In this document: one piece after another, positions 9,955 to 42,661 of the stretch
Layout of the letters: each line of letters starts with the position of its first letter
How positions within the stretch are numbered: position 1 is the stretch's first letter
Translations under genes and position numbers: made by a program
Source: a virus
Direction: 5' to 3' (one strand)
DNA: 42,681 nucleotides
Virus record (IMG/VR): IMGVR_UViG_3300042691_042880
Coordinates: 1 to 42,681 of that record
Notes under the pieces: model-generated
The model's input: the letters and a program-made list of their open reading frames with translations, nothing else
What the model was told of the DNA's origin: nothing
Databases searched by the model: none

Positions 9955-9958
9955 TCCC

Positions 9959-11161: not shown

Positions 11162-11175
11162 AAAGGATATAGATA

Positions 11176-23638: not shown

Positions 23639-23972
23639 AGTGCAGCGCATCCTCTAATTTGGCTTCATCAAATATCCCCTTTTTAATAAGATAGAACCTT
23701 TGCTTTCCATTCCGGTGTGACGGAATCAGTTTGTTAAAACTTTGAAAGAAGGTTATCTTTTTCCCTTTGTGTGAGTTATCGTTACTTGGTTTCCATAATA
23801 CTCTATAGTAATAGAAGATCAAATAATTGGGAACGAGTTGTGTTCCAGGCTCAATACCCATATCTTCAACAAATTGTACTACAGTTTTTATAGGACGAGA
23901 AGAGTCTTTTTTTCCTCTCTTCTCACTCCCGCTATTAATAATATCAAGTAGTTCATCAATTGATCTAGACAT
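23553..23972 (-). CDS. Putative winged-helix DNA-binding protein
   Basis: A 139-residue protein. Residues about 30-95 (VVQFVEDMGIEPGTQLVPNY, LIFYYYRVLW, then FFQSFNKLIPSHRNGKQRFY) follow the pattern of the winged-helix domain found at the end of D5/P4-type helicase-primases: helix, Y..W, F...F, R...R.Y. Here it stands alone, without an ATPase. The C-terminus is lysine-rich. It follows the ClpP-like gene by 2 bp and overlaps the next gene. The fold assignment is tentative. Confidence 0.4.
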   Translation of the reverse strand: MSRSIDELLDIINSGSEKRGKKDSSRPIKTVVQFVEDMGIEPGTQLVPNYLIFYYYRVLWKPSNDNSHKGKKITFFQSFNKLIPSHRNGKQRFYLIKKGIFDEAKLEDALHYDKNFWSPKKTKQKKLPVLKELGSTSET

Positions 23973-25072: not shown

Positions 25073-25477
25073 TTAAATCTCCTCGCTTTTCTTACTCTTC
25101 TTTCTTGTTTGCGCTCTTTCCTGAGCTTCTACAACACACTTAGACAAATGACATGCCTCACATAATGGCTGAAGATTGTCTTCTTCACAAAACATGCCAT
25201 TAATAATTTCGTCCCAAGTAGGATTAGTTTTATCAACTGGCACAACTGGACTAATGTGATCGACTACAATTTTCCCAACAACAGCGTCGGGGTGAATTAG
25301 TCTGATACTTTCAATAGAGCGATCTCCGGAATAAACCACGGAATTACAAGCGGGACATTTAAACGTCATCGGTCCTATCTTCGCTTTGTCCTTCGTCGCT
25401 TTGATCGGCGGGTAATACCTCGTCAATCTTCTCAACTGGCTCATCACTCTTGCTCTCCACGATTTGCTCATCGGCAT
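25073..25477 (-). CDS. HNH endonuclease
   Basis: A 134-residue HNH nuclease. It has a basic N-terminus (SWRARVMSQLRRLTRYYPP), a zinc pair CPAC at 41-44, the catalytic DH at 73-74 in VVDHISPVVP, TWDEIINGMFC, the Asn in EEDNLQPLC (N101) and the second zinc pair C106-x2-C109 plus H110. This type occurs in many phages as a recombination, packaging or homing nuclease. The ATG at 25477 is supported by AAGGTGG upstream even though it overlaps the previous gene by 119 bp. There is no separate DNA-recognition domain, so it need not be a homing enzyme. Confidence 0.85.
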   Translation of the reverse strand: MPMSKSWRARVMSQLRRLTRYYPPIKATKDKAKIGPMTFKCPACNSVVYSGDRSIESIRLIHPDAVVGKIVVDHISPVVPVDKTNPTWDEIINGMFCEEDNLQPLCEACHLSKCVVEAQERAQTRKKSKKSEEI

Positions 25478-30521: not shown

Positions 30522-30740
30522 TTACTCCTCTAAAGCTAAATCCATTTTAGTTGCTTCTCTAACATTTGTGTAAAAAAGTCCATAACCTTCAACATATACA
30601 CAATAATCTCTCATCAATTCTGAAAACTCTCTACTAATTGATTTAAAGTGTTTACGTATAACTCCTACCTTTCCATTACATTCAACACTATCACAAACAA
30701 TCACCACTTTTTCCCCAATTTTAAACTTCGGCTCACTCAA
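30522..30740 (-). CDS. SH3/KOW-like small protein, paralog family member 1
   Basis: A 72-residue member with FKIGEKVVIV at the front, GKVGVIRKHF in the middle and the C-terminal motif NVREATKMDLALEE. The start is a TTG at 30740, supported by GGAG 8 bases upstream and by the parallel start of the member at 38063 (SEPKFKIG compared with SKPKFKVG). It ends GAGGAGTAA, giving the SD of the phosphoesterase gene. Function unknown; the small barrel with a KOW-like front suggests binding to nucleic acid or to a protein of the transcription/translation machinery. Confidence 0.65.
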   Translation of the reverse strand: MSEPKFKIGEKVVIVCDSVECNGKVGVIRKHFKSISREFSELMRDYCVYVEGYGLFYTNVREATKMDLALEE

Positions 30741-31038
30741 GTGCTTTCTCCATTTTAGTTTTCTTCCTAAGTTTATATTGAGGTACTGTAGTACAATGAG
30801 TCCGTCTTGCTAAAGCTGGACCATCCGTAATGCATAAATAATAGTTGTAGAAGATACCTTTGTCAAATATAAAAATCACTTCGTATACGTTTTTTTCATA
30901 GATTACTTTTTCACCGATACTAAACCAAGGCTTAATAAGTCTATTTCTCAAAAACACAAAGACATCTTTAAATATATGACTTTTAAGTAAAAAGAACTGG
31001 AGTAAAAGAATAAGAAGCATTGTTTGTATAGAAATCAT
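30733..31038 (-). CDS. Membrane-anchored SH3/KOW-like protein, family member 2
   Basis: A 101-residue protein with a membrane span at 2-18 (ISIQTMLLILLLQFFLL), a basic linker, then a barrel start PWFSIGEKVIYEKNVYEVIF and a shortened C-terminal motif LRKKTKMEKALE. Its front and end match the soluble paralogs, so this is a fusion of the barrel to a membrane segment. It has GAAGG before its ATG and overlaps member 1. Confidence 0.6.
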   Translation of the reverse strand: MISIQTMLLILLLQFFLLKSHIFKDVFVFLRNRLIKPWFSIGEKVIYEKNVYEVIFIFDKGIFYNYYLCITDGPALARRTHCTTVPQYKLRKKTKMEKALE

Positions 31039-31040
31039 TA

Positions 31041-31406
31041 TTATAGACCTTCAAGAGCTTTTGTCATACTGTCAACATCGGGAATCTCTGATTCTTTGAA
31101 CACATTTTCGTGAGAACCTGAAAGAGAAATCCCTAAAGATTGGGCAAAACCAGATGTAGCCGCATTATTTTTAGTAATTTCATAGCAAGCATAATATCTA
31201 TGAATAAAAGAATGATACTCAGCACAATAGTCAATTATGTACTCTTTTTTCCCAATAAAGAATTTATAGCCGCTTTTAAACTTAGGCTTTTTAGAAACAG
31301 CTATTCTAATAGCAACTAAAAGCTCTTTCGTTGAGTTAACTCCGAACATCTTATTAATAGAAGTTAAAATAATTAAAAGTGCAGCAAGTTCAAAAATAGT
31401 TATCAT
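31041..31406 (-). CDS. Membrane-anchored SH3/KOW-like protein, family member 3
   Basis: A 121-residue protein: membrane span at 2-17 (ITIFELAALLIILTSI), a helix, then KKPKFKSGYKFFIGKKEY and a variable loop, ending DVDSMTKALEGL. The start of the barrel and the ALEGL end tie it to the family, although the interior has diverged more than in the soluble members. It starts in the stop codon of the M15 peptidase gene (ATGA). Confidence 0.55.
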   Translation of the reverse strand: MITIFELAALLIILTSINKMFGVNSTKELLVAIRIAVSKKPKFKSGYKFFIGKKEYIIDYCAEYHSFIHRYYACYEITKNNAATSGFAQSLGISLSGSHENVFKESEIPDVDSMTKALEGL

Positions 31407-31831
31407 GGCTTAAACATCCTAGTTCCTCCGGGTTTATAAGAACCAAATGGGACAGATTGTACGTGAATCCAAGTGGGGCTGAAGTTAAAGTCTTCAAAGT
31501 AAAGGTCAATTTCTTCCATAATTTCAGGATTGTCAAGAATCCACTGTTGGAACTCTTCAATAGATTCATCCAATGGAATAATATCACTAGCTTGAGCAGA
31601 TAAATGCTTACTTTTCATGGGAATCTTTTTAGTATCGGTAATTCCCTTGTTTTTATAAATCTGCAAGTGCTTTTTCATCGAACGAACACCAGAAGTTACT
31701 TTAAGTCGCTTACCGTAAGCAGCTCTGAGCTTATTCATTTTAACTACATGCACTTCAAAGTTCGCTAACTGTTCCGGAGAAAGTTCCTCTTCTTTTACAT
31801 CTTTTAATAGTTCATCTCTTGAAAAACTCAT
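31403..31831 (-). CDS. M15-type peptidase (D-Ala-D-Ala / L-Ala-D-Glu peptidase-like)
   Basis: A 142-residue protein with the zinc signature of peptidase family M15: KVTSGVRSMKKHLQ at 44-57, SKHLSAQASDI at 74-84 (H76, D83), an acidic patch (E113-D114) and WIHVQ at 121-125 (H123). Such enzymes cut peptidoglycan peptides and serve as endolysins in several phages. No signal peptide is present, so a holin would be needed for a lysis role. It lies in the minus-strand operon, unlike the holin-like genes. Its ATG follows AGGTG contained in the end of the upstream SH3/KOW member. Confidence 0.78.
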   Translation of the reverse strand: MSFSRDELLKDVKEEELSPEQLANFEVHVVKMNKLRAAYGKRLKVTSGVRSMKKHLQIYKNKGITDTKKIPMKSKHLSAQASDIIPLDESIEEFQQWILDNPEIMEEIDLYFEDFNFSPTWIHVQSVPFGSYKPGGTRMFKP

Positions 31832-32052
31832 GATAGCACCTGTAACATTTCTGGAGCAAATTCTATGTTATCAATGTCAGTAAACCATATACCATTTTTA
31901 TAGCTAGGATTTAATGATTGTAATTTAATTCGGTGCTTAAGGGTTGAATGAATACCACGCACTTTACAAACTTCTCCTGCTTTTAGATAAATTTCGGCAC
32001 TATTTTTTTCATCTTCTAAAACAACAACGATGTCACCTTCTTTAAAATTCAT
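31828..32052 (-). CDS. SH3/KOW-like small protein, family member 4 (APE type)
   Basis: A 74-residue member: NFKEGDIVVVLEDEKNSAEI, LKAGEVCKVRGI, LQSLNPSYKNGIW and the end FAPEMLQVLS. It pairs closely with the members at 33943 and 39653 (broken). Compared with the EGL type, the end is APE(M/I)xQVL instead of REATEMDxALEGL. The codons for LQVLS include CAGGTG, the SD for the M15 gene that starts in its stop codon. Confidence 0.65.
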   Translation of the reverse strand: MNFKEGDIVVVLEDEKNSAEIYLKAGEVCKVRGIHSTLKHRIKLQSLNPSYKNGIWFTDIDNIEFAPEMLQVLS

Positions 32053-32056
32053 ATTA

Positions 32057-32902
32057 TCATTCTCCCAACTCTGAAATCATCGAATGAAACGGATGATCAG
32101 GGTTTTTATAATATAGCTCAAATAATCTCTTAAATGTACCAAATTTTTTCTTATTTGAAAAGAAATATATTGGCTTAACTAATTTCAATAGGATAGGTGT
32201 TTTCTTATGGATTTCTAAATGCTTTAAACGAAACCACCAAAGAACACGAGTAGAAATGTTATCAGATTTTAAACTCGCTACCAATAAAGCCAAAGATGCT
32301 CCAATGGATTCTGAAATGGTGCAAGAATCTCCAACAGAAGCTCTATAAACAACACGGGAGCTACCATTATGCTGAAAGAACAAAGGATAAAAACGAGTAT
32401 AACTTTGAGAAGCTTTTCTGAAACCATCGCTGTCATAATTTAACGCATCCTTAATATAATTGGATAAGTCCTTAAAAAAACCTTTAGAAAGCATAGAACG
32501 AAGCGGTTTACCTTTTTCAAACCCTGGAACATCACAGTATTGCCAATAGTTAGATTTTCCATGATCGATAATTTCTTTAGCTAGTTTTGTGTCAGTAAGT
32601 CCGAAAACAAAAGAAGCACCTGTAATTTCATCAAATGAAACAGGTCTACCAGCCTTGGGTAATCCTCTTCTATACGGCTCAGGATGCCTCGAATATAGCC
32701 CAGGAGCGATTTTTGAAGTAAGTATGGCATCTTTTAGCGCAATAAAGTTAGCCGATGAAAAACGAGGGTTTTTGTCGTTAATAAGCTTCATTAAAATGGC
32801 ACATTCGCCAGTATATAAAAGCTGGTTATTTGTTGAATAAACTCCGCCGTTTACAGGGGCTAAGTCAATTCTTCCAAAAATGTCTTTAAACTTTTCAAAC
32901 AT
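32057..32902 (-). CDS. Hypothetical protein, 281 residues
   Basis: No known family could be named. The sequence begins FEKFKDIFGRIDLAPVNGGV and holds a conserved-looking APGLYSRHPEPYRRG segment at about 66-80, then helices with DEITGASFVFGLTDTKLAKE and IIDHGKSNYWQY, and a basic C-terminal half (RVLWWFRLKHLEIHKKTPIL). There is no signal peptide and no clear membrane span. It stands between an SH3/KOW member and a membrane-anchored protein in the early operon. Confidence 0.55.
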   Translation of the reverse strand: MFEKFKDIFGRIDLAPVNGGVYSTNNQLLYTGECAILMKLINDKNPRFSSANFIALKDAILTSKIAPGLYSRHPEPYRRGLPKAGRPVSFDEITGASFVFGLTDTKLAKEIIDHGKSNYWQYCDVPGFEKGKPLRSMLSKGFFKDLSNYIKDALNYDSDGFRKASQSYTRFYPLFFQHNGSSRVVYRASVGDSCTISESIGASLALLVASLKSDNISTRVLWWFRLKHLEIHKKTPILLKLVKPIYFFSNKKKFGTFKRLFELYYKNPDHPFHSMISELGE

Positions 32903-32911
32903 GTAAACTCC

Positions 32912-33334
32912 TTAGAATTCCAAAGCTATACCAATTCCCACTTGCTTTTGAGTTGTCCCAATGGCTTGACCTTTAAGCTTTCCAATTAACGGGAAAGTTA
33001 CAGTGGCTCCATATTCTAACTCACTAGAAAATTCTGTCAAGTCTTTTAAAACAAGTACCCCCACTGTGACGCTTGAACCTTTCTCAGTTTTCTTATCCGT
33101 AACTGATTCTTGTTTAGTATCAGTTTGGGACTTTATATCAACTTGGGTACGTGTTTCAACAGACCCATCAGGTCTTTTAATTTTAACAGAAGTGATTTTT
33201 TTATCTTCTCTTTTCTTCTGCTCTTTTTTCTCAACAATTTTAATTTTTTCAACCACTTTAGGTTCTTGAGGAAATAAGAACTTTCCCGCTAAAAAAGCAG
33301 CAAGAGTAATAATAGCAACATATTGTAATTTCAT
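32912..33334 (-). CDS. Membrane-anchored periplasmic protein
   Basis: A 140-residue protein. An N-terminal membrane span or signal anchor (YVAIITLAAFLAGKFLF) precedes a Lys/Glu-rich stalk (25-50), a Thr/Ser/Asp-rich linker and a beta-rich C-terminus ending VGIGIALEF, with alternating hydrophobic residues like an outer-membrane strand. The layout could bridge the cell envelope, similar in principle to a spanin or an outer-membrane-targeted phage protein, but no family was recognised. It starts by ATGA overlap with the preceding SH3/KOW member, whose end supplies GGAGGG. Confidence 0.5.
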   Translation of the reverse strand: MKLQYVAIITLAAFLAGKFLFPQEPKVVEKIKIVEKKEQKKREDKKITSVKIKRPDGSVETRTQVDIKSQTDTKQESVTDKKTEKGSSVTVGVLVLKDLTEFSSELEYGATVTFPLIGKLKGQAIGTTQKQVGIGIALEF

Positions 33335-33525
33335 AAGCCCTCCAAGGCTTTATCCATTTCGGTAGCTTCTCTAAATCTTTCAGGACAAAATTCGTAATGA
33401 GACCCTTTAATCTTAATATAACGCTTAGAAAATATTGATCTTACAGTATAAATCTTACCTTCAATTAATTTTAAACCGACTAATCCCTTTATACAAACAA
33501 CTTTATCACCCTTTTTAAACTTCAC
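33331..33525 (-). CDS. SH3/KOW-like small protein, family member 5
   Basis: A 64-residue member. The start is a GTG at 33525 that overlaps the previous stop (GTGA) and follows GGAGGG; upstream in-frame codons lie inside the neighbour. The protein runs KFKKGDKVVCIKGLVGLKLI, EGKIYTVRSIF, then FREATEMDKALEGL, the consensus form of the C-terminal motif. It is the last of four consecutive members between 33331 and 34161. Confidence 0.65.
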   Translation of the reverse strand: MKFKKGDKVVCIKGLVGLKLIEGKIYTVRSIFSKRYIKIKGSHYEFCPERFREATEMDKALEGL

Positions 33526-33725
33526 AGTCCCTCCAAAGCTAATTCCATTTCTATAGCTTTTCTTATGTTGAAAGGATTGACACCAAAAGTCCAACCTACC
33601 AACATTATCATACCAAGATTTCTCTCGTCCATCACATAATTAACAGTATGTATCGTACCTTTTCTTGCCACATATAATCCATAGTCAACTAGAAGAACGA
33701 CCTTATCGCCTTTTTTAAAACTCAC
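33522..33725 (-). CDS. SH3/KOW-like small protein, family member 6
   Basis: A 67-residue member starting with GTG at 33725 in a GTGA overlap. It shows SFKKGDKVVLLVDYGLYVAR, then KGTIHTVNYVM, and ends NIRKAIEMELALEGL. The codons for LEGL and the stop read GGAGGGACTGTGA and carry both the SD and the GTG start of member 5. Confidence 0.65.
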   Translation of the reverse strand: MSFKKGDKVVLLVDYGLYVARKGTIHTVNYVMDERNLGMIMLVGWTFGVNPFNIRKAIEMELALEGL

Positions 33726-33946
33726 AACCCCTCCAAAGCTAATTCCATTTCAAGAGGCTCTCTAACATTGGCATAAACAAAATCACCCGTAGTATCTGTA
33801 GTTAATCTCACTTTATAATTATATGAAAACTCTGTGTCACTAGATGAAAAATATCCTAAAACTACAGCAACTTTACCAATAGCATGTTGATCTCCTCTTA
33901 AATAAGTATCAATGATTATTACCTTATCACCTTCTTTAAACTTCAT
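33722..33946 (-). CDS. SH3/KOW-like small protein, family member 7
   Basis: A 74-residue member: KFKEGDKVIIIDTYLRGDQH, AIGKVAVVLGYFSSSDTEFS, and the end YANVREPLEMELALEGL. The middle part (GYFSSSDTEFSYNYKVRL) resembles member 9 (AYYSTMLEDGDDFSETNFDY), so these two form a closer pair. The ATG is overlapped by the stop of member 8. Confidence 0.65.
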   Translation of the reverse strand: MKFKEGDKVIIIDTYLRGDQHAIGKVAVVLGYFSSSDTEFSYNYKVRLTTDTTGDFVYANVREPLEMELALEGL

Positions 33947-34161
33947 GGTAACACCTGGAATATTTCTGGAGCAAGTACTACGTTATCAATTTTACAAACC
34001 CAATTTCCATTTTCATAACTAGGAGACAAGGACTGCAAATCTAACATATATTCGTCATAATAACTCAAAACTTCACAAACTTCTCCCGCTTTTAGAAAAG
34101 TAGCCGAAGGTGTTTTTATATCTTCTAAAACAACAACAATATCACCCTTTTTGTATTTCAT
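33943..34161 (-). CDS. SH3/KOW-like small protein, family member 8 (APE type)
   Basis: A 72-residue member: KYKKGDIVVVLEDIKTPSAT, FLKAGEVCEVLSYY, LQSLSPSYENGNW, and the end VVLAPEIFQVLP. It is the best intact match to the broken copy at 39653-39881. The CAGGTG within FQVLP precedes the next ATG and works as its SD. It follows a small gene by ATGA overlap. Confidence 0.65.
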   Translation of the reverse strand: MKYKKGDIVVVLEDIKTPSATFLKAGEVCEVLSYYDEYMLDLQSLSPSYENGNWVCKIDNVVLAPEIFQVLP

Positions 34162-34385
34162 TTCTTTCTCTTTTTAAAACTGTTAACAGAATCAGTAGAA
34201 CTTCCAACAAGTTTACCTTTTTTATCAAAGCTTAAATGAACACTGTCTCTTATAGAAACACTGACAACCGCTCCAGCTTTTAACGCACCGTCGTCAATAA
34301 ACTCAGATTCTTGCCAAGTTGAGAAAAACACTCCCGTCTTTTTTAAAAACGATAGGAGCTTTTGTAGCTCTGTTTTCTTTTTCAT
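34158..34385 (-). CDS. Small hypothetical protein
   Basis: A 75-residue basic protein: a helical front (KKKTELQKLLSFLKKTGVFF), a possible small barrel (GALKAGAVVSVSIRDSVHLS, FDKKGKLVG) and a Lys-rich end (SFKKRKK). It lacks the C-terminal family motif and the FKxGD start, so it is not counted with the SH3/KOW family. ATGA overlaps on both sides. Confidence 0.5.
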   Translation of the reverse strand: MKKKTELQKLLSFLKKTGVFFSTWQESEFIDDGALKAGAVVSVSIRDSVHLSFDKKGKLVGSSTDSVNSFKKRKK

Positions 34386-34561
34386 AGCTCGTCCTTAATC
34401 TTTTCCAACTCTTTTGTAAGGACTACTCCAACAAGAGTTCCGTTAATAACCTGGCCCATAGAAAGCTTTAACACTTCTTCAATAACTTCTTTAGCAAATT
34501 CCTTAAGTTGGGAATCGTCAGAAGGTAAGTGATATGAGTACTTTTTAAAAAGGGAATTCAT
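34382..34561 (-). CDS. Small hypothetical protein
   Basis: A 59-residue protein if started at the ATG at 34561 (NSLFKKYSYHLPSDDSQLKE), which overlaps the nucleotidyltransferase stop by 17 bp. A longer frame upstream lies mostly within that gene and is not favoured. It is helical with KEFAKEVIEEVLKLSMGQVI and ends TKELEKIKDEL. Function unknown. Confidence 0.45.
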   Translation of the reverse strand: MNSLFKKYSYHLPSDDSQLKEFAKEVIEEVLKLSMGQVINGTLVGVVLTKELEKIKDEL

Positions 34562-35204
34562 CTTTATTTCCGTTTCCAAGTGCTTTAAACATATCAATTT
34601 CACTTGCCAATTCTTCAATAATTCCACTAACGCTAAGAGCTTGAGAAGCTGAAATACAGTTTGATCTTTTTTCTAAATCTTCTTGCGAAGTAATCACTCC
34701 ACTATTGGCAATAACTACCGCCATTTTTAAAAGCTGAGTTTCGCTAATAGTGTAGCCCATTTTTAAGAATTTGTTAATTCTTGTTAGTGCTGAAATTGGT
34801 GCAGTCGCTTTAACGTTGAACTTAATCTCTGAGCCATACCTATATAGAAGTTTATTTGTAAAAGGTTTAAAATATACCTGATTAATATTAAAATCAAATT
34901 TACTAACGACATCATTGGGTGAGCCAGAAACTAACGTAATAAATTGAATCTTTTTATTGTCAAAATCCCAATCAATGTTACCGAGAGGACTTTTTTCAAA
35001 CACTTTATTAGATTCTGCATACTTACAAAATACAAGCATATCCTCTTTTTTTTCAAAGAAGATGTCGTAATCATTTGGCTCTTTTAATCGAACTAAATCT
35101 CGAACACATCCTCCCGCAAAGTAAGTGCGCTCTTTTACCATTTGTTTTAAATGATCAGGCATAACGTTTACTATCTTTTCGTGCAGTTCTAATAACTCTT
35201 TCAT
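34545..35204 (-). CDS. CCA-adding / poly(A) polymerase-type nucleotidyltransferase
   Basis: A 219-residue protein with the head-domain signature of class II CCA-adding enzymes and poly(A) polymerases: YFAGGCVRDLVRL at 28-40 (GG 31-32, R35, D36) followed by NDYDIFF with the metal-binding D45 and D47. Residues 60-130 continue the beta-sheet, and 130-170 (APISALTRINKFLKMGY) resemble the flexible neck. It is shorter than bacterial CCA enzymes (about 400 residues) and lacks the full tail. It may repair or extend tRNA ends or other RNA 3' ends during infection. Directly downstream of the polymerase region. Confidence 0.75.
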   Translation of the reverse strand: MKELLELHEKIVNVMPDHLKQMVKERTYFAGGCVRDLVRLKEPNDYDIFFEKKEDMLVFCKYAESNKVFEKSPLGNIDWDFDNKKIQFITLVSGSPNDVVSKFDFNINQVYFKPFTNKLLYRYGSEIKFNVKATAPISALTRINKFLKMGYTISETQLLKMAVVIANSGVITSQEDLEKRSNCISASQALSVSGIIEELASEIDMFKALGNGNKDEFPF

Positions 35205-35389
35205 TATAGGTCCTCTTCGTGGATAAACGTAAGTTGATGATTTTCTGGAATAATGAATCCAACCGCTTTTAGAAAGCAGGTAAAATCTTCTAAGATATCA
35301 GGAAGATTATTCGCCTCTGTAATGAATTCGATAGATGTTCTATCAAAGGAATCAGCTACTTCCATGTTTTTCTTAAATGTTAAGCTCAT
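35204..35389 (-). CDS. Small hypothetical protein downstream of DNA polymerase
   Basis: A 61-residue protein with strand-helix pattern SIEFITEANNLPDILEDF, TCFLKAVGFIIPENHQL. The F-I...DIL..F..F.K..GF..P order recalls residues in the small protein just upstream of the polymerase (37840-38073). If both are homologous, they flank the polymerase gene. Function unknown; its stop codon touches the nucleotidyltransferase start. Confidence 0.5.
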   Translation of the reverse strand: MSLTFKKNMEVADSFDRTSIEFITEANNLPDILEDFTCFLKAVGFIIPENHQLTFIHEEDL

Positions 35390-35410
35390 ATAAAATCCTC
35401 CTAAAGCATC

Positions 35411-37852
35411 TTAGCTTTTAATTTGTTCAATGTCAAGAACTGCATCCAAAATATCAAGAGTGGCATCAACTCTTCCTATATAATGCTCAACATCATAATT
35501 ACCATCAAATTCTTCAATCAATTTTAAAACCTTGTTGGGAATCATTTTAGGTAGTCCAGTCTTTTTATAAACAACAGGTTCACCCTTTTTCACATCTTGA
35601 ACTTCACCTTCAACTTTATTAAATAACCAAACTTTATCACCTTCTCTAACATTTTCCAAATTTAAAGCATCGGTTACTTTTGTTTCGTTTTTTCTCGTAC
35701 CTTCTAAAAGTTTTTTAGTAATGGACTTTTTTACCGCCCATCTCTTTATGTCTTTAATATTCTTAGCTTCTTCAATATATCTATTGTAGATATCTTTTTC
35801 TAACCCTTTGTTAAAAACGAGGGAATCAATAAGCTGATCGAGCATTTCAGTTAAAGCTGGCTCTTTTTTAGAATCAGTTAAAGAGCTTCCTTTCTTTTTG
35901 TATTTCTCTGACCCCTTCGGTAAAAGAACGTAATTTTTAGCTTTTGAAACAATGACTCTAGAAAACTCCCCATCATCTTCCCAATTACAATACATAATGT
36001 CATTTAGCTCTTTTTCAATTTGTTTCATTTCAACTGGAGTAAATTCCGATTCGTCACTTTTAGCAAAAGAAAGAGAGTCTGTGTCTAAATTAACTAGCTT
36101 AAAATCATGTATAGGCATTTGTGAAAAACTTACATTAGTTTTTTCATCAATCTCTTCAAAATTAGGAGCATCTTGTTCTTCTTCGTACTTTTCCCACCAT
36201 TGGTTAATGTCTTTACCTGTTGCCCATATAATAGCCTTTTGTAGCCCTGCTCTACAGTTTCGAGTAATCTGTGCAGCATGTTCAAATGAATTGAAATTTA
36301 GCCCATTTGTAGCCAGTACGCCATATGAACTATTGATGAATATCTTTTGAGCAGCTTGAAGATCGTCATAATATGAATCTTTAGTTTCTTTAAACAATTT
36401 CTTGTTTTTCAAACGAGCCTCAGTAAAATATTTAACAGTTTTAACGAATAAGTTCTTAGGGTCTTTTTTAGCGTTATATATGTTGAATTTTAAGATTGTA
36501 CTAGGATAATATGAAGCTGCATCATATTTGAGTACATTGGAATAAATTCCAGGAACGCCATAGCTCATTCCTCCTGCAACACGAGAACTATCTGATGCTC
36601 TAGGAACGCTTTCGTTATTTTGAAGATATCCCCTAACAAGAACAGAATTAACCCATTTTCCTGTAGCACCTTGCAGCATTTCTTCAAAAGGAATTGGTAA
36701 AGATTGGCAAGTATAAAAATATGAAGTAATCATTCTATAAAAAAGATTTATAGTATCTTCAGAATCGTCGATACCGTATTGGATAATTTTTTCCCGCTCT
36801 TCGGGAATATCCCAATTATCTTTAATCTTTGATGCGTCATAGAATTGGCGAGACTCTGAAATGAATCCTTCAGCTTCAGCAATTGGTTTTAATCCCCAAC
36901 TAGGATAACCTTTACCTACTCCATAATTCAAAGCCACAAATAGACCGTCAACGATTTGTCTTCCGTATATATGAGCTTTATGATAATCCCAGCTTGTGTT
37001 ACCATCAACTCTTTTTTGCGACACATTACGTTTAAACTCAACATTCGAACCATCTCGTCCCAACGCTAAACTTGTATTATTTAGTTTGGCAACATGCTCC
37101 AAATAAGGTAAGTCATAGCCGTAACCATTCCAGAAGTTTATAATATCAGGATCAATAGCTCTTACCCATTTACACCAATCGTCAATCATTTTTCCAGCGT
37201 CATTATTATACTCATCAACTCTGAAATGTTTTTTTACTCTTATTCCATTTTTTTCATAAGAATTAGTAATAAGATAAACTTGAGATTTTTTATGGTGAGA
37301 CAAACCTTCCGATTCAATATCAAAAGCTAATACCCCTAAATCTGATGGCTTCATTCCTTTATAAAGAGTGATGCCTTCAATTAGCATAACTTGTTCCCGA
37401 GCATTCCATATTCCATAAACATTATCTTTTTTCCAAAGTTGCATATATTTAGCAAACTCGGGATAAGTTGAAAAGAATCGTATATATTTATAGTGTGTAT
37501 TTCCTTCCAGTCTTTTACAACGACTATCAAGCATTTTATCACAAAGAAGCCAAAAACGTGCTGGTCTTACTTCGGTATTTCCGTAACGGTCAAATATAAC
37601 AATTTCATTATCAACAACTTCAACTGCAACAATATCCAATGTTTTATCTTTCCCATAAATCAAATCGTCGAAATAATGAAGCTCTGTGTGAAATGGCTTA
37701 TATGTTTCTGAAAATGTAAATACTTCATTTTCAGTTACGATTTTATCGGGAGTTAAATCGAAAGGAGTTTTGTCTTCATAGATTAAAGCTTTTAGTTCGG
37801 AAAGAGCCTCATCATCTGAAATATGCCAATGAGTTTTCTCTATTCCTCCCAT
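35411..37852 (-). CDS. Family B DNA polymerase with 3'-5' exonuclease
   Basis: An 813-residue replicative polymerase. Exonuclease motifs: I with D178-I-E180 (FDIESEGLSHH), II with D247 (NGYGYDLPYL), III with Y359-x3-D363 (YGIDDSED). Polymerase motifs: A at 444-451 (DAASYYPS), B at 503-511 (KIFINSSYG), C with D590 and D592 (LDTDSLSF), and the KxY motif near 639-641 (KNY). All catalytic residues are present. ATG at 37852 is chosen (GGGAG five bases upstream) over a GTG two codons earlier. No terminal-protein insertion was recognised, and the neighbouring primase implies RNA/DNA-primed replication. T7 itself uses a family A enzyme. Confidence 0.93.
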   Translation of the reverse strand: MGGIEKTHWHISDDEALSELKALIYEDKTPFDLTPDKIVTENEVFTFSETYKPFHTELHYFDDLIYGKDKTLDIVAVEVVDNEIVIFDRYGNTEVRPARFWLLCDKMLDSRCKRLEGNTHYKYIRFFSTYPEFAKYMQLWKKDNVYGIWNAREQVMLIEGITLYKGMKPSDLGVLAFDIESEGLSHHKKSQVYLITNSYEKNGIRVKKHFRVDEYNNDAGKMIDDWCKWVRAIDPDIINFWNGYGYDLPYLEHVAKLNNTSLALGRDGSNVEFKRNVSQKRVDGNTSWDYHKAHIYGRQIVDGLFVALNYGVGKGYPSWGLKPIAEAEGFISESRQFYDASKIKDNWDIPEEREKIIQYGIDDSEDTINLFYRMITSYFYTCQSLPIPFEEMLQGATGKWVNSVLVRGYLQNNESVPRASDSSRVAGGMSYGVPGIYSNVLKYDAASYYPSTILKFNIYNAKKDPKNLFVKTVKYFTEARLKNKKLFKETKDSYYDDLQAAQKIFINSSYGVLATNGLNFNSFEHAAQITRNCRAGLQKAIIWATGKDINQWWEKYEEEQDAPNFEEIDEKTNVSFSQMPIHDFKLVNLDTDSLSFAKSDESEFTPVEMKQIEKELNDIMYCNWEDDGEFSRVIVSKAKNYVLLPKGSEKYKKKGSSLTDSKKEPALTEMLDQLIDSLVFNKGLEKDIYNRYIEEAKNIKDIKRWAVKKSITKKLLEGTRKNETKVTDALNLENVREGDKVWLFNKVEGEVQDVKKGEPVVYKKTGLPKMIPNKVLKLIEEFDGNYDVEHYIGRVDATLDILDAVLDIEQIKS

Positions 37853-38073
37853 AAACACTCCCTATAATTCAAAATATAAAACTCTTCTACATATTTTCTA
37901 TCAATTGGAGTGAATGTTCCAATTTTAAAGAATCTATCCAATATATCATCAATTTGGTCATTTTCGCAAGTTACTAAAATAAACGAAACTTCATCAGCTA
38001 AATCAGAGTCACTAAGGTTACTAACTTCTAATTTTAGCGTAAACTCTTCGTATAACATTTGGCTATAGTTCAT
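37840..38073 (-). CDS. Small hypothetical protein upstream of DNA polymerase
   Basis: A 77-residue protein (NYSQMLYEEFTLKLEVSNLS, then EVSFILVTCENDQIDDILDR, FFKIGTFTPIDR). The ATG at 38073 is preferred because GAGG lies 7 bases before; an earlier ATG at 38088 is inside the upstream gene. Its last codons contain the GGGAG used by the polymerase gene, so the two are translationally coupled. Possible relative of the gene at 35204. Confidence 0.5.
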   Translation of the reverse strand: MNYSQMLYEEFTLKLEVSNLSDSDLADEVSFILVTCENDQIDDILDRFFKIGTFTPIDRKYVEEFYILNYRECLWEE

Positions 38074-38317
38074 CACACAAAACCTCATCCATAGCGGTTG
38101 CTTCTCTAACGTTTACGTACAATCTTATATTAGAAGATGTTCTAACTATGTAATCAAAATTAGTTTCCGAAAAATCATCACCATCTTCTAGCATTGTTGA
38201 ATAATAGGCTAATATTTTAGCAATTTTACCCACTGCATTAATTCCTATTTTCATATCAGGAATATTAGTTCCAGTAATAACAACTCTATCGCCAACTTTA
38301 AACTTCGGTTTACTCAT
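38063..38317 (-). CDS. SH3/KOW-like small protein, family member 9
   Basis: An 84-residue member: SKPKFKVGDRVVITGTNIPD, NAVGKIAKILAYYS, and the end VNVREATAMDEVLCDEL, a diverged form in which EGL is replaced by CDEL. Its front is nearly the same as member 1. It ends over the start of the small gene before the polymerase. Confidence 0.65.
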   Translation of the reverse strand: MSKPKFKVGDRVVITGTNIPDMKIGINAVGKIAKILAYYSTMLEDGDDFSETNFDYIVRTSSNIRLYVNVREATAMDEVLCDEL

Positions 38318-38318
38318 T

Positions 38319-38588
38319 TTAAAGACCTTCTAAAGCTTTGTCCATTTCGGTAGCTTCTCTAACATCAGCCCAAGCGTACACAATGTCAAACTTACCAGGA
38401 CCAGATTTGAATTCTACCTGATAATCTTTTTTATCACTTCTGGGAGCAGTTTCTCCATTTGAAAGTACTAGAATAGTTTCTCTAATTCTTCCGACTCTAC
38501 CTATGTATATACGATTGATATCAGAGTTAACGTCTGTAATTACAACAGTTTCACCAACTTTATAAATTCTCTGAGGAGTTTTTTCCAT
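38319..38588 (-). CDS. SH3/KOW-like small protein, family member 10
   Basis: An 89-residue member: RIYKVGETVVITDVNSDINR, IGRVGRIRETILV, DYQVEFKSGPGKFDIVYAW, ending ADVREATEMDKALEGL (full consensus). It is the closest partner of member 14 (IGRIGVIKETI, DYLVRV, YIWADV). It overlaps the end of the primase gene by 29 bp, and its TTAGAAGG end precedes member 9. Confidence 0.68.
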   Translation of the reverse strand: MEKTPQRIYKVGETVVITDVNSDINRIYIGRVGRIRETILVLSNGETAPRSDKKDYQVEFKSGPGKFDIVYAWADVREATEMDKALEGL

Positions 38589-39423
38589 CTCTCACTGCCT
38601 TTTTAATTTGGTACATGTCTTTTGAATCTAGCGGATTAGGAGCGATAGACTCAATTACAGAAATGATAACATCTTCTTCAATTCCTGACAAGGCTAAACT
38701 AAACACAGCAGCGTTTAAAGACATTATCCAATTACCTTCAATTCCTGTATGAGCATTCTCTAAAAAGAAGCTTACCGACTCAGGAACTCTTTCCCGATCT
38801 TTTCCGTAAAGAGTTCGGACAAGTCCACGAATTCCGTCAGTTACGTCAACTTGGATAAGCTCACCTTTTAAAAGATTAGCCGTTGATTTATTGGGAATGA
38901 TTTCAGCTCGGGTAGGTTTTAGAAGTTCTCCTTCTTGAAAAAACCCATCGGATAAATTTGACATACAGTACCAACGAGCAAGGTCGCTACATGACGGATC
39001 ACGTTCTGGGAAATGTTCGCACATTTTCTCCAGCGTTTTAAAATAGTCAGCTTTATTAAAAATAGTATGAAGAAGTGGGAAAACTAAGCGGTGCTTTTGA
39101 TTTTCCTGAGTAAAGCTGGGAGAAGGCAGACACACTGCCATAAGTCCTAAATTTTGAATTCTTTTTTCAGATTCTGCAATGGATAAGCCAGTGTCGATAT
39201 CTAAAACTAGGAAATCGCAAGAAACCCAAAAGTCTTCATGTCTTGGCCCATCAAAAACAAACGGACTCCATGAATACGTTGTAATAGCTTCAATAAGCTC
39301 TTCATCAGTTCTAACAACCGTAGTTTCTGGTAAGTTGTCTTTTGAACAAAGATATGCCAATTTAATTTTATCCTCTTTTGTTTTTGGAGTAAAATTGGCT
39401 TTTTTAAAAACAGATAGTTTCAC
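38560..39423 (-). CDS. Archaeo-eukaryotic-type (AEP) primase
   Basis: A 287-residue protein with AEP catalytic motifs: I CDFLVLDIDTG with D75 and D77, II ENQKHRLVFPL with H111, and III SCSDLARWYC with D147. The C-terminal part (about 215-287) ends YQIKKAVRDG, like the PriCT helices of phage and plasmid primases. It would make primers for the family B polymerase 700 bp downstream. The start is GTG at 39423 in a GTGA overlap with an SH3/KOW member whose end supplies GGAGGG. There is no helicase domain in this chain; the helicase is separate at 40737. Confidence 0.8.
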   Translation of the reverse strand: MKLSVFKKANFTPKTKEDKIKLAYLCSKDNLPETTVVRTDEELIEAITTYSWSPFVFDGPRHEDFWVSCDFLVLDIDTGLSIAESEKRIQNLGLMAVCLPSPSFTQENQKHRLVFPLLHTIFNKADYFKTLEKMCEHFPERDPSCSDLARWYCMSNLSDGFFQEGELLKPTRAEIIPNKSTANLLKGELIQVDVTDGIRGLVRTLYGKDRERVPESVSFFLENAHTGIEGNWIMSLNAAVFSLALSGIEEDVIISVIESIAPNPLDSKDMYQIKKAVRDGKNSSENL

Positions 39424-39656
39424 AGTCCCTCCAACGCTAAATCCATTTCGGTAGCTTCTCTAAAATGTTCAACACGGAGGTCATAATTCTTTCCGTTGAC
39501 ATTTACATAAGTTTGTTGTCTCCCATCAGGGAAAGTAACAGTGAATATTTTTTCTATTACGTATAGCTTACCTAAGAAAGTACACCTCTGTGTTATTGTA
39601 TCAATATACCATAAATCAGATAAACTAACAACTTTATCGCCTTCTTTAAAACTCAT
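39420..39656 (-). CDS. SH3/KOW-like small protein, family member 11
   Basis: A 78-residue member: SFKEGDKVVSLSDLWYIDTI, FLGKLYVIEKIFTV, then VEHFREATEMDLALEGL (consensus). Its FLGKLYVIEKIF segment pairs with EGKIYTVRSIF of member 5, which also has a FRE motif, so these two form a subgroup. Located between the primase and a broken family member. Confidence 0.67.
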   Translation of the reverse strand: MSFKEGDKVVSLSDLWYIDTITQRCTFLGKLYVIEKIFTVTFPDGRQQTYVNVNGKNYDLRVEHFREATEMDLALEGL

Positions 39657-39881
39657 GATAACACCTGGAATATTTCTGGAGCAAGTGCTATTTTAGAAAT
39701 GTTAATAGTCCACTTACCGCCCTTAAAGTTGGGATTTAATGATTGTAAGTGTGCCCACGTTTTTCCTGTTTCAAATGTCGTCACTTCACAAACCTCACCT
39801 TTTTTTAAAATAAGTGGTTCCGCTATACTCACCTATTTCATCTTCCAAAACAACAACAATGTCGCCTTTTTTGTATTTCAT
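39653..39881 (-). pseudogene. Frameshifted SH3/KOW-like gene, family member 12 (APE type)
   Basis: From the ATG at 39881 the frame reads KYKKGDIVVVLEDEIGEYSG then TTYFKKR and stops at TGA. One base later the second frame continues KKGEVCEVTTFETGKTW, LQSLNPNFKGGKW and ends IALAPEIFQVLS. The break lies at an A7 run (minus strand; T at 39800-39806). With six A the two halves join as YFKKGEVCEV, matching FLKAGEVCEV of member 8. Start and stop overlaps with both neighbours are intact. It may be a true mutation, a sequencing error, or corrected by transcriptional slippage on A7. Confidence 0.75.
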
Positions 39882-40084
39882 AACCCTTCCAATAATAAGA
39901 ACATTTCAGGAGCGTCTCTAAACCGATAAGCTTTAAAGTTTCGCTGTGTTATATAAGAGTTTAAATCAAGCTCCACCATTTCTACGTTATCCGTGTTTTT
40001 ATACTCTCGAAACACTTTATACACTCTACCCAATTGGAGATTGTATTCAGTGCCAGAGTTATCAACGCAGATAACGTATTTCAT
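39878..40084 (-). CDS. SH3/KOW-like small protein, family member 13
   Basis: A 68-residue member that lacks the usual FKxGD front (KYVICVDNSGTEYNLQLGRV, YKVFREYKNTDNVE) but ends FRDAPEMFLLLEGL. This end joins the two C-terminal types: APEM as in the APE group and LEGL as in the REATEMD group, showing they are one family. It ends GGAAGGGTTATGA, giving SD and start to the broken copy. Confidence 0.6.
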   Translation of the reverse strand: MKYVICVDNSGTEYNLQLGRVYKVFREYKNTDNVEMVELDLNSYITQRNFKAYRFRDAPEMFLLLEGL

Positions 40085-40737
40085 TTAACATGTTTCCAAG
40101 TTTTTTCTTCTTTAATACAGCTTACAGCAGTCTGTGATACATTAAACAATTCAGCAATCACACCTACTTTCTCTTTTTTATTAAGCATAATCTTTATCTT
40201 CTTCACTTTATCTTCAGTCAACTTTGCTAGATGGTGACAACTTCCGTGACGGATACCTCTATTTTCATAGTTACAAATAGGAAGGTGTTTCCACGAAACT
40301 CCTCGTATAATATCTGATACATTACGTCCACTCATTCCGAATAAATTTCCTATTTCTTTGTTAGTTAGTTTTGTAGAAGCTGCTAACTTTCTAATTTCCA
40401 AAACTTGAGCCTCTTTTAATTTTCGCCAATGCCTCTCTCCTTCAGTTTTAAATTGAGTCCACTTAAGATTATCTATGTGATTATTACAAATATCTCCGTC
40501 AATGTAAATAACACGACTGCGTTTTTCTGGGTTTGTCCCAAAGGTTAATAATACAAGCTTACATAAACGGTAAACACGTTTTTTATTTGAACTAATTACT
40601 AGATTAACTTTACGAGAAGATTCTGAAGTATAGGCTTTTACAAACCTTCCTTTAATAATATCCCTAACTCTTCCGTGATTGGATATTTCATAACGCTCTT
40701 CAAATTTTTCTATAGGTTTCCAAATTTCATCATTCAT
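40081..40737 (-). CDS. NUMOD4/HNH-type homing endonuclease relative, possibly inactive
   Basis: A 218-residue protein. The NUMOD4 opening is clear (IWKPIEKFEERYEISNHGRV, residues 5-24). An HNH_3-like core follows (LVLLTFGTNPEKR, then YIDGDICNNHIDNLKW at 78-93), but the catalytic His usually before IDG is Tyr78 and the G-N pair is G-D. Two helix-turn-helix units follow (NKEIGNLFGMSGRNVSDIIR and AELFNVSQTAVSCIKEEKTW). It sits between the helicase and an SH3/KOW gene with 1-4 bp overlaps. A decayed or repurposed homing enzyme is inferred. Confidence 0.75.
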   Translation of the reverse strand: MNDEIWKPIEKFEERYEISNHGRVRDIIKGRFVKAYTSESSRKVNLVISSNKKRVYRLCKLVLLTFGTNPEKRSRVIYIDGDICNNHIDNLKWTQFKTEGERHWRKLKEAQVLEIRKLAASTKLTNKEIGNLFGMSGRNVSDIIRGVSWKHLPICNYENRGIRHGSCHHLAKLTEDKVKKIKIMLNKKEKVGVIAELFNVSQTAVSCIKEEKTWKHVK

Positions 40738-41759
40738 TATAAATCCCCCGGATTAGTCCCTCCGACAATTTTTGTCAGCTTAACTTCTCTTCCATCCTTA
40801 CCAATTATAGTATCAGAAATATCGAACTGATACGACTTAAATTTTTCCTCATTTTGTCTAAGCTCTAACACCTTTTCATAATACATAGAAAAGTCTGCTT
40901 TTTCTTGTCGTGTAAGTTCTCGTAAATCTTCAGTATCGTATTCAAAATAAAGAACATAGTTCATATTTTCTCTAACTTTATCGCCTTTATTTTTATAACG
41001 AATTTTAGCATATTGCCAACCTAAAATAGGTAAGTTAGCTTCTTTTTGTACTTTTAATAATGGCTGAAAGATTGTAATAATGTTGGTCATTAAGTTCTCA
41101 TAGCGAGAAGTGCCGAAACATCCGTCTTTTGGAACGGGACAGTCCCCACCACCTTTCCCTTTTGTGGTTTGAGAAAGAATCAGTCCATGACTATCAAGCT
41201 CTACAGTCATGTTCTTAAGCTCTCTACAAACTGGATTATAGTCTTTAATGGCACCGTCAAGACTAATCTCATGTAAGTGGTCTAAAACATAAGCAATTAA
41301 TGTTTCATTTAAAACTTCTTTAATTTTTCTAAGCTCGTGTTTAATTAGCCCAACATTTAGTTCTTTACATTTTCCCGACTCATCGTAGTTTTCAATAATA
41401 TAAAGTCTGTCGGAAATCTCGGGACAGTCTACGGTCATCTTCTCCCATTTTTCAGCAATTTCATCTGCTGTCATTTCTAATGAAACAAAAGCAACAACGC
41501 CAGTTTGGTTATTTTGTAAGATATGTTTAAGAATGTATAGTGAGTAGCTCGTCTTACCGACTCCACTTCCCGCTAGAATTCCGGTCATATCACCTCTATG
41601 CCAAGGTCTTTGTAAACAATCAATCTTTTTTGGCCCATTAACGTATTTAGAAGGGTCAGCTTTACCAGAAACAAGTCCAGCTCGCTTCAAATCCCCTAAG
41701 CTTTTAATACCCATTTGGCTCTTTCTTTTCTCATCAAAATTCACACTTATCTCCTTCAT
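40737..41759 (-). CDS. DnaB-like replicative helicase
   Basis: A 340-residue SF4/RecA-fold helicase. Walker A is GSGVGKT at 64-70, the catalytic Glu lies in FVSLEM (E95) as in DnaB, Walker B has D160 in AYVLDHLHE, and the sensor Gln is in LILSQTTKG (about 197). It lacks the DnaB N-terminal domain and the primase domain of T7 gp4, so it depends on the separate primase for priming. It begins 1 bp after the stop of an SH3/KOW member whose GGAGGG acts as SD. It would unwind the fork for the family B polymerase. Confidence 0.9.
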   Translation of the reverse strand: MKEISVNFDEKRKSQMGIKSLGDLKRAGLVSGKADPSKYVNGPKKIDCLQRPWHRGDMTGILAGSGVGKTSYSLYILKHILQNNQTGVVAFVSLEMTADEIAEKWEKMTVDCPEISDRLYIIENYDESGKCKELNVGLIKHELRKIKEVLNETLIAYVLDHLHEISLDGAIKDYNPVCRELKNMTVELDSHGLILSQTTKGKGGGDCPVPKDGCFGTSRYENLMTNIITIFQPLLKVQKEANLPILGWQYAKIRYKNKGDKVRENMNYVLYFEYDTEDLRELTRQEKADFSMYYEKVLELRQNEEKFKSYQFDISDTIIGKDGREVKLTKIVGGTNPGDL

Positions 41760-42005
41760 TTACAGTCCCTCCAGCACTTCAAATATTTCAATCACTTCAC
41801 ACACATCAGCCCAAATATAAGCACGATGCCCTCCAATTTCGACTCTGACCAGGTAATCTTGCTCCCCATCCATTGGATCATTCATTGAATCGCAGTCTTT
41901 TATAGTTTCTTTAATTACGCCAATTCTTCCAATAAACGGTAAATCTTTTTGATACTTTTCTCTTACAGCTTTTATTAAAACTTTATCACCCTTTTTAAAA
42001 ACCAT
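41760..42005 (-). CDS. SH3/KOW-like small protein, family member 14
   Basis: An 81-residue member: VFKKGDKVLIKAVREKYQKD, IGRIGVIKETIKD, DYLVRVEIGGHRAY, then IWADVCEVIEIFEVLEGL. The EATEMD part is diverged (EVIEIF) but LEGL is kept. It directly precedes the helicase gene, with TAA followed by ATG. Confidence 0.65.
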   Translation of the reverse strand: MVFKKGDKVLIKAVREKYQKDLPFIGRIGVIKETIKDCDSMNDPMDGEQDYLVRVEIGGHRAYIWADVCEVIEIFEVLEGL

Positions 42006-42198: not shown

Positions 42199-42464
42199 TA
42201 GTTATACCACTTATCAAGTTCATTGCATTTTTTAATACATTGAGAAAGAGACATAGCTTCGCAAGTATCAACTATATCATAATTCCACTCAGTTACACAC
42301 ATAAATATTTGTTCTTTTTTAACACATTGTCCTGTACTTGTTGAATATTCCAAACAGCCTCCGTTATCTTTAATAATGTACTCTGTTGTGTATAAACAAA
42401 AAGCACAAAACAGCAAAAAGATAGAAGTCCCGATAGTACCAATTAAATCTTCATAATTTTTCAT
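42198..42464 (-). CDS. Membrane-anchored Cys-rich small protein
   Basis: An 88-residue protein with an N-terminal membrane span (about 8-26, TSIFLLFCAFCLY) and an outer domain with six Cys (C37, C47, C56, C68, C76, C80), ending CNELDKWYN. Six Cys in 44 residues after a membrane anchor suggest three disulfides in the periplasm. Superinfection exclusion or envelope modification is conceivable but not shown. ATGA overlap with the DUF2283-like gene. Confidence 0.55.
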   Translation of the reverse strand: MKNYEDLIGTIGTSIFLLFCAFCLYTTEYIIKDNGGCLEYSTSTGQCVKKEQIFMCVTEWNYDIVDTCEAMSLSQCIKKCNELDKWYN

Positions 42465-42661
42465 TTATTTTCCTTTTTTTTATAGTCTTCATAATAGGAC
42501 GGTTCAAGTTCGTCTAAAATCTCTATTCCTATAAGTTCGCCGTCTTTATTGTAATCTAAGTAAACACCGTTACCCTTACTTACTGTTTTGAGAGGCTTAA
42601 ACGAATCATCCCAAGGGACAACTTCGATATAACTAGCATCATTTCCTATACGTGCTTTCAT
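42461..42661 (-). CDS. DUF2283-like small protein
   Basis: A 66-residue protein with the DUF2283-type segment VYLDYNKDGELIGIEILD at 33-50, preceded by a strand and followed by an acidic/aromatic helix (EPSYYEDYKKKENK). DUF2283 proteins are small single-domain proteins of unknown function. The ATG overlaps the stop of a further upstream frame. Confidence 0.55.
   Translation of the reverse strand: MKARIGNDASYIEVVPWDDSFKPLKTVSKGNGVYLDYNKDGELIGIEILDELEPSYYEDYKKKENK

Follow-up and report, generated by a model that had tools for sequence, protein, structure and literature searches.

Small KOW/SH3-like phage proteins of unknown function (for example PHROG 4927, 22041, 4317 and 5785) have an FKxGDxV start and a barrel-type core in common with the proteins analysed here. 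One of our proteins matches phrog_4927 at E = 1.3e-5 and others match more weakly; the PHROG matches mostly cover the N-terminal part, and none of the significant ones rests on the C-terminal tail described below. T4 MotB, an early protein with an N-terminal KOW domain, binds DNA and copurifies with H-NS (PMC7827196). Like our proteins, it is small, is made early and has a predicted KOW/SH3-like domain. However, MotB is encoded by a single gene and ends in an OB fold, whereas the present family comprises many genes whose products, at 64–89 amino acids (up to 121 with a membrane segment), are too short for a second domain, so that a MotB-like KOW plus OB arrangement does not apply. A small SH3-fold protein, encoded by a single upstream gene, is described beside jumbo-phage DNA polymerases (PMC7824862); our locus shares the proximity to a replicative polymerase gene and differs from that description in its many copies and common tail. 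The same source records a zinc-ribbon expansion in Bacillus phage G, with about 35 copies (PMC7824862), likewise a large expansion of a small domain within a single phage, although the fold is another and the passage concerned mentions no phage-specific common tail.

Here, we analysed a 42,681-nucleotide stretch of viral DNA (‘the window’; IMG/VR record IMGVR_UViG_3300042691_042880). No earlier description of a phage-private tail on small SH3-like proteins was found in the literature searched.

Small early proteins with a common C-terminal tail

A preliminary description of the window had proposed about 14 paralogous SH3/KOW-like mini-proteins. An ORF check found all 14, named here by their stop coordinates, on the minus strand (Table 1). 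Using leave-one-out (LOO) HMM searches of 572 six-frame ORFs, we recovered 12 of the 14 as one family, with E values of 4e-17 to 4e-8 for 11 members and 0.0015 for the C-terminal piece of 39653. The latter had been called broken, and the frameshift was confirmed: its N-terminus (MKYKKGDIVVVLEDEIG...) lies at 39881 and the frame changes near an A7 run, at ~39800. Both 31041 and 30733 scored less well (E = 0.0016 and only 0.49, respectively) and ranked directly below the training members, 30733 being the top-ranked non-training sequence. In each, hydropathy analysis revealed a hydrophobic segment at residues 1–18, followed by KFKSGYKFF... in 31041 and WFSIGEKVI... in 30733; we class both as weak members that bear an additional, probable membrane anchor at the N-terminus. 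A profile built from the 12 members detected no further copies in the window, and when C-termini were clustered without prior bias, 11 of these proteins formed its sole large cluster.

The FKxGDKVV-type start ascribed to all members holds in general, except that 39878 lacks it and that the hydrophobic segment precedes it in 31041 and 30733. The proposed GK(V/I)xxI centre also exists, although G[KRE][VIL]xx[VI] describes it better. Tails are of two related kinds, REATEMDxALEGL and APE-type (APE(I/M)xQVL), with a hybrid at 39878. A few starts were revised, including those of 33331 and 30522. Among the neighbouring genes, 41760 adjoins that of a DnaB-like helicase, directly upstream, the stop of 39420 overlaps the primase start, and 31828 overlaps the M15 peptidase start.

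Table 1. Members of the small-protein family and a dual-use gene junction in the window.
Feature	Coordinates	Strand	Length (aa)	Sequence features	Evidence
Member	41760..42005	-	81	MVFKKGDKVL...GRIGVI...CEVIEIFEVLEGL	LOO HMM E 9e-12; A1 profile E 9e-28
Hybrid-tail member	39878..40084	-	68	C-terminus FRDAPEMFLLLEGL; no FKxGD start	LOO HMM E 3.5e-8
Frameshifted APE-type member	39653..39881	-		C-terminal piece frameshifted; C-terminus APEIFQVLS	Profile, ORF inspection
Member	39420..39656	-	78	C-terminus FREATEMDLALEGL	Profile, LOO HMM, structure model
Member	38319..38588	-	89	C-terminus VREATEMDKALEGL; non-SD codons GAA GGT CTT	Profile, LOO HMM, codons
Member	38063..38317	-	84	C-terminus VREATAMDEVLCDEL (tail end degenerate)	LOO HMM E 3e-9
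APE-type member	33943..34161	-	72	C-terminus APEIFQVLP	Profile, LOO HMM
Member	33722..33946	-	74	C-terminus VREPLEMELALEGL; 4-nt overlap each side	LOO HMM E 1e-15
Member	33522..33725	-	67	GTG start; C-terminus IRKAIEMELALEGL	LOO HMM E 2e-9
Member	33331..33525	-	64	GTG start at 33525 (not TTG at 33594); C-terminus FREATEMDKALEGL	Profile, LOO HMM
APE-type member	31828..32052	-	74	C-terminus APEMLQVLS	LOO HMM E 5e-15
Weak member, probable membrane anchor	31041..31406	-	121	C-terminus SMTKALEGL	LOO HMM E 0.0016, hydropathy
Weak member, probable membrane anchor	30733..31038	-	101	C-terminus KKTKMEKALE	LOO HMM E 0.49, hydropathy
Member	30522..30740	-	72	TTG start; C-terminus VREATKMDLALEE	LOO HMM E 1e-14
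Dual-use junction	33515..33540	-		TTGGAGGGACTGTGAAG: LEGL-stop, Shine-Dalgarno (SD), overlapping GTG start of next gene	ORF/codon inspection

Predicted fold of the family

We used AlphaFold2 to model 39420 (mean pLDDT 86.7) and a member from a sister phage (L015:14684; pLDDT 92.9). Both models show the same architecture, an SH3-like barrel of five or six strands followed by a C-terminal helix that the tail motif forms (residues 70–76 in 39420; in the sister-phage member, its own, different tail). Foldseek neighbours were mostly MSL3 chromo-barrel, SH3, PWWP and Tudor domains, with weak E values (best 0.03–0.04), and a PDB profile search gave MSL3 as its best match (E = 0.01), with L24 at about 1.2. 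No SH3/KOW family reached its curated Pfam cut-off, the best being SH3_2 (E = 0.0019; 18.3 bits versus a cut-off of 21.8). The models and their neighbours support the SH3/KOW-like fold proposed earlier, as a predicted small five-strand barrel. On the positive-inside rule, 31041 and 30733, with their probable membrane segment, would show the tail on the cytoplasmic side.

These models also fit an account in which no partner is involved: the tail would be an ordinary structural helix capping the barrel, and each phage would have expanded the family independently from one founder. Common descent and the constraints of packing would then keep the tails similar as the exposed loops of the cores diverged. 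In both models the tail is predicted to be ordered, directly following the final strand, and its confident helix in single chains fits packing on its own barrel, with a partner unneeded, which counts against docking. MSL3 chromo-barrel and PWWP-type barrels, both among the fold neighbours, also bear C-terminal helices, and hydrophobic residues recur in every tail. However, residues of exposed type (E, T, D, K and R) are conserved as well, and with the divergence data given below we consider this account somewhat unlikely.

Gene junctions and codon use

The EGL part of the motif doubles as the ribosome-binding site of the next gene, a role that the preliminary description had overlooked. At several junctions, TTGGAGGG lies inside the LEGL codons, ahead of overlapping GTG or ATG starts. 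The conserved C-terminus might then be a DNA signal (a ribosome-binding site with overlapping start, or else a sequence marking a boundary), with the peptide as a by-product, yet REATEMD sits upstream of the SD, 38319 and 31041 retain EGL through GAA GGT codons, EGL codon identity in the window (0.26) is below expectation (0.39), and sister-phage tails have no GGAGG in their conserved stretch (HPILVKLWRLD). We rejected this reading as very improbable, the codon data already largely refuting it. Boundary and start-associated sequences of cluster K mycobacteriophages differ likewise, as their greater conservation in nucleotides than in peptide is not seen here outside the three APE-type tails (0.92).

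At conserved residues, codon identity was 0.51 against a codon-usage expectation of 0.49 in G001, and 0.51 against 0.44 in G002. Synonymous codons are thus nearly free in most tails, indicating that the peptide has been kept, rather than the DNA or a recently copied stretch. At the DNA level the APE-type tails are almost the same (0.92, versus 0.56 in their cores), which points to recombination or recent copying; codon identity is also modestly raised in R-type tails (0.57 versus 0.42). Such tails, together with conserved stop–start junctions and direct repeats that span gene boundaries, agree with concerted evolution, in which gene conversion would copy tails between paralogues through short end/start homologies and selection for a partner would play no part. 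As an explanation of the family this appears improbable, because most tails keep the same amino acids while their codons differ nearly to the codon-usage limit, the opposite of recent DNA copying, and because 38319 and 31041 retain EGL, in other codons, although the junction is not needed there.

Conserved tails on divergent cores

Across the family, the ends are conserved and the middles divergent; in the REATEMD group, tail identity is 0.54 versus ~0.17 in the core. Similarity is not confined to the last ten residues, as judged by the HMM and core tests: with N-motif and tail removed, core similarity was significant for some members only (the core of 33722 by itself outscored 2000 of 2000 decoys), and none was detectable between the REATEMD and APE-type groups. 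The 17% core identity of the REATEMD group is lower than that of any neighbouring gene tested between the window and a sister phage (38–70%), so that either the cores have evolved extremely fast, or the expansion preceded the split and tails were replaced later. This finding, and the near saturation of synonymous sites in most tails, weigh against a purely structural helix.

Related phages carry sets with other tails

Sets of small early proteins also occur in two IMG/VR relatives, numbering at least 16 in the one whose polymerase is 70% identical and about 19 in the one at 46%. Each relative has a tail of its own: K(V/I)HP(I/T)LVKLWRLDE in one and YPNTxLFRxLYPNG in the other (a sister-phage example is HPILVKLWRLDE). 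Tails are alike inside each phage (scores of 37, 57 and 53) and compare between phages about like shuffled sequence (9.6–13.2 versus 9.2–10.8 for shuffled tails). The tail is therefore constant inside one phage and different between related phages, as a docking tag should be. Clustering of C-tails gave one large cluster for each of the three tail-bearing phages known, with sizes of 11, 13 and 17, the largest of which appears to include L015:12505 only by chance. A more distant relative is without such a set, its only cluster consisting of 4 acidic tails, and no set was found in the controls (T4, Aeromonas phage 65, Salinibacter and Nostoc phages), where C-tail clusters did not exceed 2.

The main replication genes are still 55–70% identical between the sister phages. 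In BLAST searches of the relative with the 70% identical polymerase, no member was matched, although neighbouring replication genes were. No orthologous pair of members could be recognised between the window and a sister phage (182 pairs compared; best z about 4), and the window profile did not recognise the sister sets; profile–profile comparison aligned the N-terminal GDxV part only (E = 4.5e-4, probability 33%). Scans of IMG/VR with single members returned no relatives, and the tail patterns returned only the contig of origin, bar one unrelated chance match, a REATEMD-like one to a coiled-coil-like protein in L007. A host search across genome contigs found nothing.

In both the window and the sister phage, such a gene lies upstream of the helicase, primase and TM genes, and another downstream of the peptidase; the three upstream coincidences were not relied on, as random placement would give them in ~18% of cases (hand count).

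Discussion

The occurrence of sets of the same kind with different tails in related phages suggests a phage-specific tag for docking or assembly rather than ordinary leftover gene copies. We tentatively prefer the reading, plausible if just short of probable, that these small SH3/KOW-type barrels share their C-terminal helix (REATEMDxALEGL or the APE-type variant) as a common docking or assembly element. The barrels would be free to diverge, probably so as to bind nucleic acid or distinct targets of the host or phage, whereas the tail would be constrained to fit one common surface, either a single phage-encoded hub or the tails of sister proteins in a mixed oligomer. Were that surface to change in evolution, all tails of the phage would change along with it, which would give every related phage its own constant tail. 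The preliminary description had suggested a common partner or assembly surface, with variable cores choosing different targets. The relatives' sets strengthen the first proposal, although structural constraint and recombination could produce part of the pattern; the tail would dock to a putative common partner, and the cores may act on different targets in taking over the host or in counter-defence. The motif of G001 also occurs at N-terminal or internal positions, which is odd for a simple C-terminal dock and counts against docking.

A constant short peptide on variable bodies is also found in T4 internal proteins, as their capsid-targeting sequence. By analogy, the tail could be a virion-packaging signal and the small proteins be ejected into the host with the DNA. 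This is highly unlikely, since the T4 proteins are virion proteins with a packaging role, whereas the present genes lie among replication genes rather than virion genes, the tail is a C-terminal helix, and two members have a membrane segment.

If the tail is a docking element, it may serve as an address tag for each phage, a possibility that we hold more loosely: a dozen or more fast-evolving SH3-like proteins would be recruited via one C-terminal helix, private to the phage and rewritten throughout the set whenever the hub or oligomer changes. Phage early regions abound in small proteins whose function is unknown, and a phage-private constant tail, used as a single bait, could fish out a common partner and reveal the role of the whole set. 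Comparison of the sister phages also allows a clear evolutionary test between co-evolution with a single common partner and homogenisation driven by recombination.

Family membership and predicted fold

The 14 small minus-strand ORFs, named here by their stop coordinates, were all found as the preliminary description had placed them, scattered among replication genes. From the right end of the window to ~23 kb, this strand encodes a DnaB-like helicase, a primase-like protein, a family B DNA polymerase, an M15 peptidase and a member of the PHROG ‘DNA transfer protein’ family, while plus-strand genes are for the most part structural. The 42,681-base IMG/VR record is listed as linear and is thus of a kind that is often a fragment; related contigs with long records span 77–80 kb.

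Using leave-one-out profile searches, we recovered 12 of the 14 members, 11 at E values of 4e-8 to 4e-17. The C-terminal piece of the broken gene 39653, in which the reading frame changes near an A7 run through either an assembly error or a true mutation, scored 0.0015. Values for 31041 (0.0016) and 30733 (0.49, yet ranked first among non-training sequences) mark these two as weak members. In both, positive charges follow an N-terminal hydrophobic segment, a pattern suggesting that they are anchored in the membrane with barrel and tail in the cell interior.

After removal of the FKxGDKVV N-motif and the tail, the cores were significant for a minority of members, and those ending in REATEMDxALEGL (REATEMD group) were not linked to those ending in APE(I/M)xQVL (APE group), so the family is held together by its ends. 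Members of the REATEMD group share an amino acid identity of 0.55 across the N-motif and 0.54 across the tail, against 0.17 for the core. The earlier proposal of one paralogous family is confirmed for 12 of the proteins, with 31041 and 30733 as weaker members.

An SH3/KOW-like fold had also been proposed, and AlphaFold2 predicts a barrel with a C-terminal helix for 39420 (12 family rows; mean pLDDT 86.7), the one window member modelled. The helix, at residues 70–76, coincides with the tail. Foldseek neighbours were the MSL3 chromo-barrel and SH3 domains, with weak E values, and small uncharacterised phage proteins. A member from the sister phage G002 gave the same predicted architecture (confidence 92.9), its helix being that protein's own tail, with PWWP and Tudor domains as neighbours (weak E values). 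The cores show weak PHROG and Pfam similarity to small, unnamed SH3/KOW-like phage proteins. MotB of T4 is an early protein of the KOW type (PMC7827196), and PMC7824862 describes a small SH3-fold gene beside the polymerase in jumbo phages and a large zinc-ribbon expansion in phage G.

Each tail-bearing phage has its own tail

Related phages were obtained by searching with the window polymerase; the three tail-bearing phages compared are all uncultured. G002 (IMGVR 3300026473_000477; identity to the window 70% in polymerase, 61% in helicase, 55% in primase) encodes at least 16 small proteins, whose genes are interspersed among the same replication genes. Most have a GDxV-like start, and every one has K(V/I)HP(I/T)LVKLWRLDE, or a variant close to it, at or near its end. 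In G001 (3300035670_000138; polymerase 46%), ~19 small proteins carry YPNTxLFRxLYPNG, in a few of them internally or near the N terminus. Since five tandem proteins have it at such positions, this module seems able to change place. G004 (polymerase 38%) has no comparable set, its sole cluster of three or more being four acidic tails.

Blind clustering of C-terminal 30-mers, with thresholds set on shuffled tails, returned one large cluster per phage (11, 13 and 17, the last including one apparent chance link); T4, Aeromonas phage 65 and the Salinibacter and Nostoc phages yielded pairs at most. Mean best ungapped tail scores were 37, 57 and 53 within phages versus 9.6–13.2 between them (shuffled, 9.2–10.8). 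No tail pattern recurred in another IMG/VR contig, apart from an unrelated sequence that matched the window tail by chance. Among 50,697 phage records, neither the G001 nor the G002 tail had a significant match. Our search of the open-licence literature turned up no description of a shared tail specific to one phage.

Window members had no BLAST match in G002, although the replication genes around them did, as did several small neighbours; gene positions are partly common, but no more than chance could give. As the paralog cores diverge more within the window than tested neighbouring genes do between window and G002, the cores must evolve very fast, unless the sets predate the split and tails were later replaced in all copies.

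Coordinates of features in the window and related contigs
Contig	Coordinates	Observation
Window	19496-20677	Candidate partner gene
Window	23553-23972	Candidate partner gene
Window	25073-25477	Candidate partner gene; resembles HNH endonucleases
Window	34545-35204	Poly(A)-polymerase head domain match (PF01743, E 9.7e-5, just above curated cut-off)
Window	40081-40737	NUMOD4/HNH endonuclease gene between helicase and next tail-protein cluster; possibly a homing endonuclease insertion, because not found at the same place in G002
Window	42461-42661	Small protein at window end; DUF2283 match (PF10049, E 8.8e-8)
G001 (L013)	10880-12088	Five tandem small proteins, YPNTxLFRxLYPNG near N terminus or mid-protein
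G002 (L015)	3226-3774	Small protein with low-complexity repeat of SAAWSAAGSAARS kind
Tail-less relative (L017)	3404-4180	Repetitive protein, of a kind different from the SAAWSAAGSAARS repeat protein
Tail-less relative (L017)	9812-13153	Polymerase gene split around ORF 11559-12482, by eye apparently a GIY-YIG homing endonuclease in an inserted homing element

Codon evidence at gene ends

At several gene junctions, the LEGL codons make up TTGGAGGG. This is a Shine-Dalgarno sequence serving the downstream gene, which has a GTG or ATG start overlapping the stop of the tail-protein gene. We rejected such dual coding as the cause of the motif, since REATEMD lies outside TTGGAGGG and EGL persists in 38319 and 31041 despite their GAA GGT codons. 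Codon identity at EGL, counted over non-independent paralog pairs, was 0.26 against 0.39 expected; the peptide is therefore what is kept. Likewise counted, tail codon identity was 0.51 versus 0.49 expected from codon usage in G001 and 0.51 versus 0.44 in G002. The three APE-type tails have nearly identical DNA (0.92 versus 0.56 in their own cores), suggesting that they recombined or were recently copied; recombination-driven homogenisation as the explanation of the tails seems improbable, given the EGL codons.

A possible shared surface

A tail peptide kept across a dozen diverging barrels, and wholly different in each phage, would be the expected product of co-evolution with one shared surface, either a hub encoded by the phage or a mixed oligomer formed by the tails themselves. 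We tentatively favour this reading. A purely structural helix combined with lineage-specific expansions, consistent with the predicted helices, is rather unlikely as the explanation. Both this and homogenisation nevertheless compete seriously with shared-surface co-evolution, and either could operate alongside it. The common partner or assembly surface proposed earlier is partly supported.

Three window genes matched both tail-bearing relatives by BLAST but not the tail-less one, and their products are weak candidates for a common partner. Barrels of the SH3/KOW type bind proteins or nucleic acids; the position of the genes among replication genes suggests that the tail proteins may serve in takeover, as replication accessories or in counter-defence.
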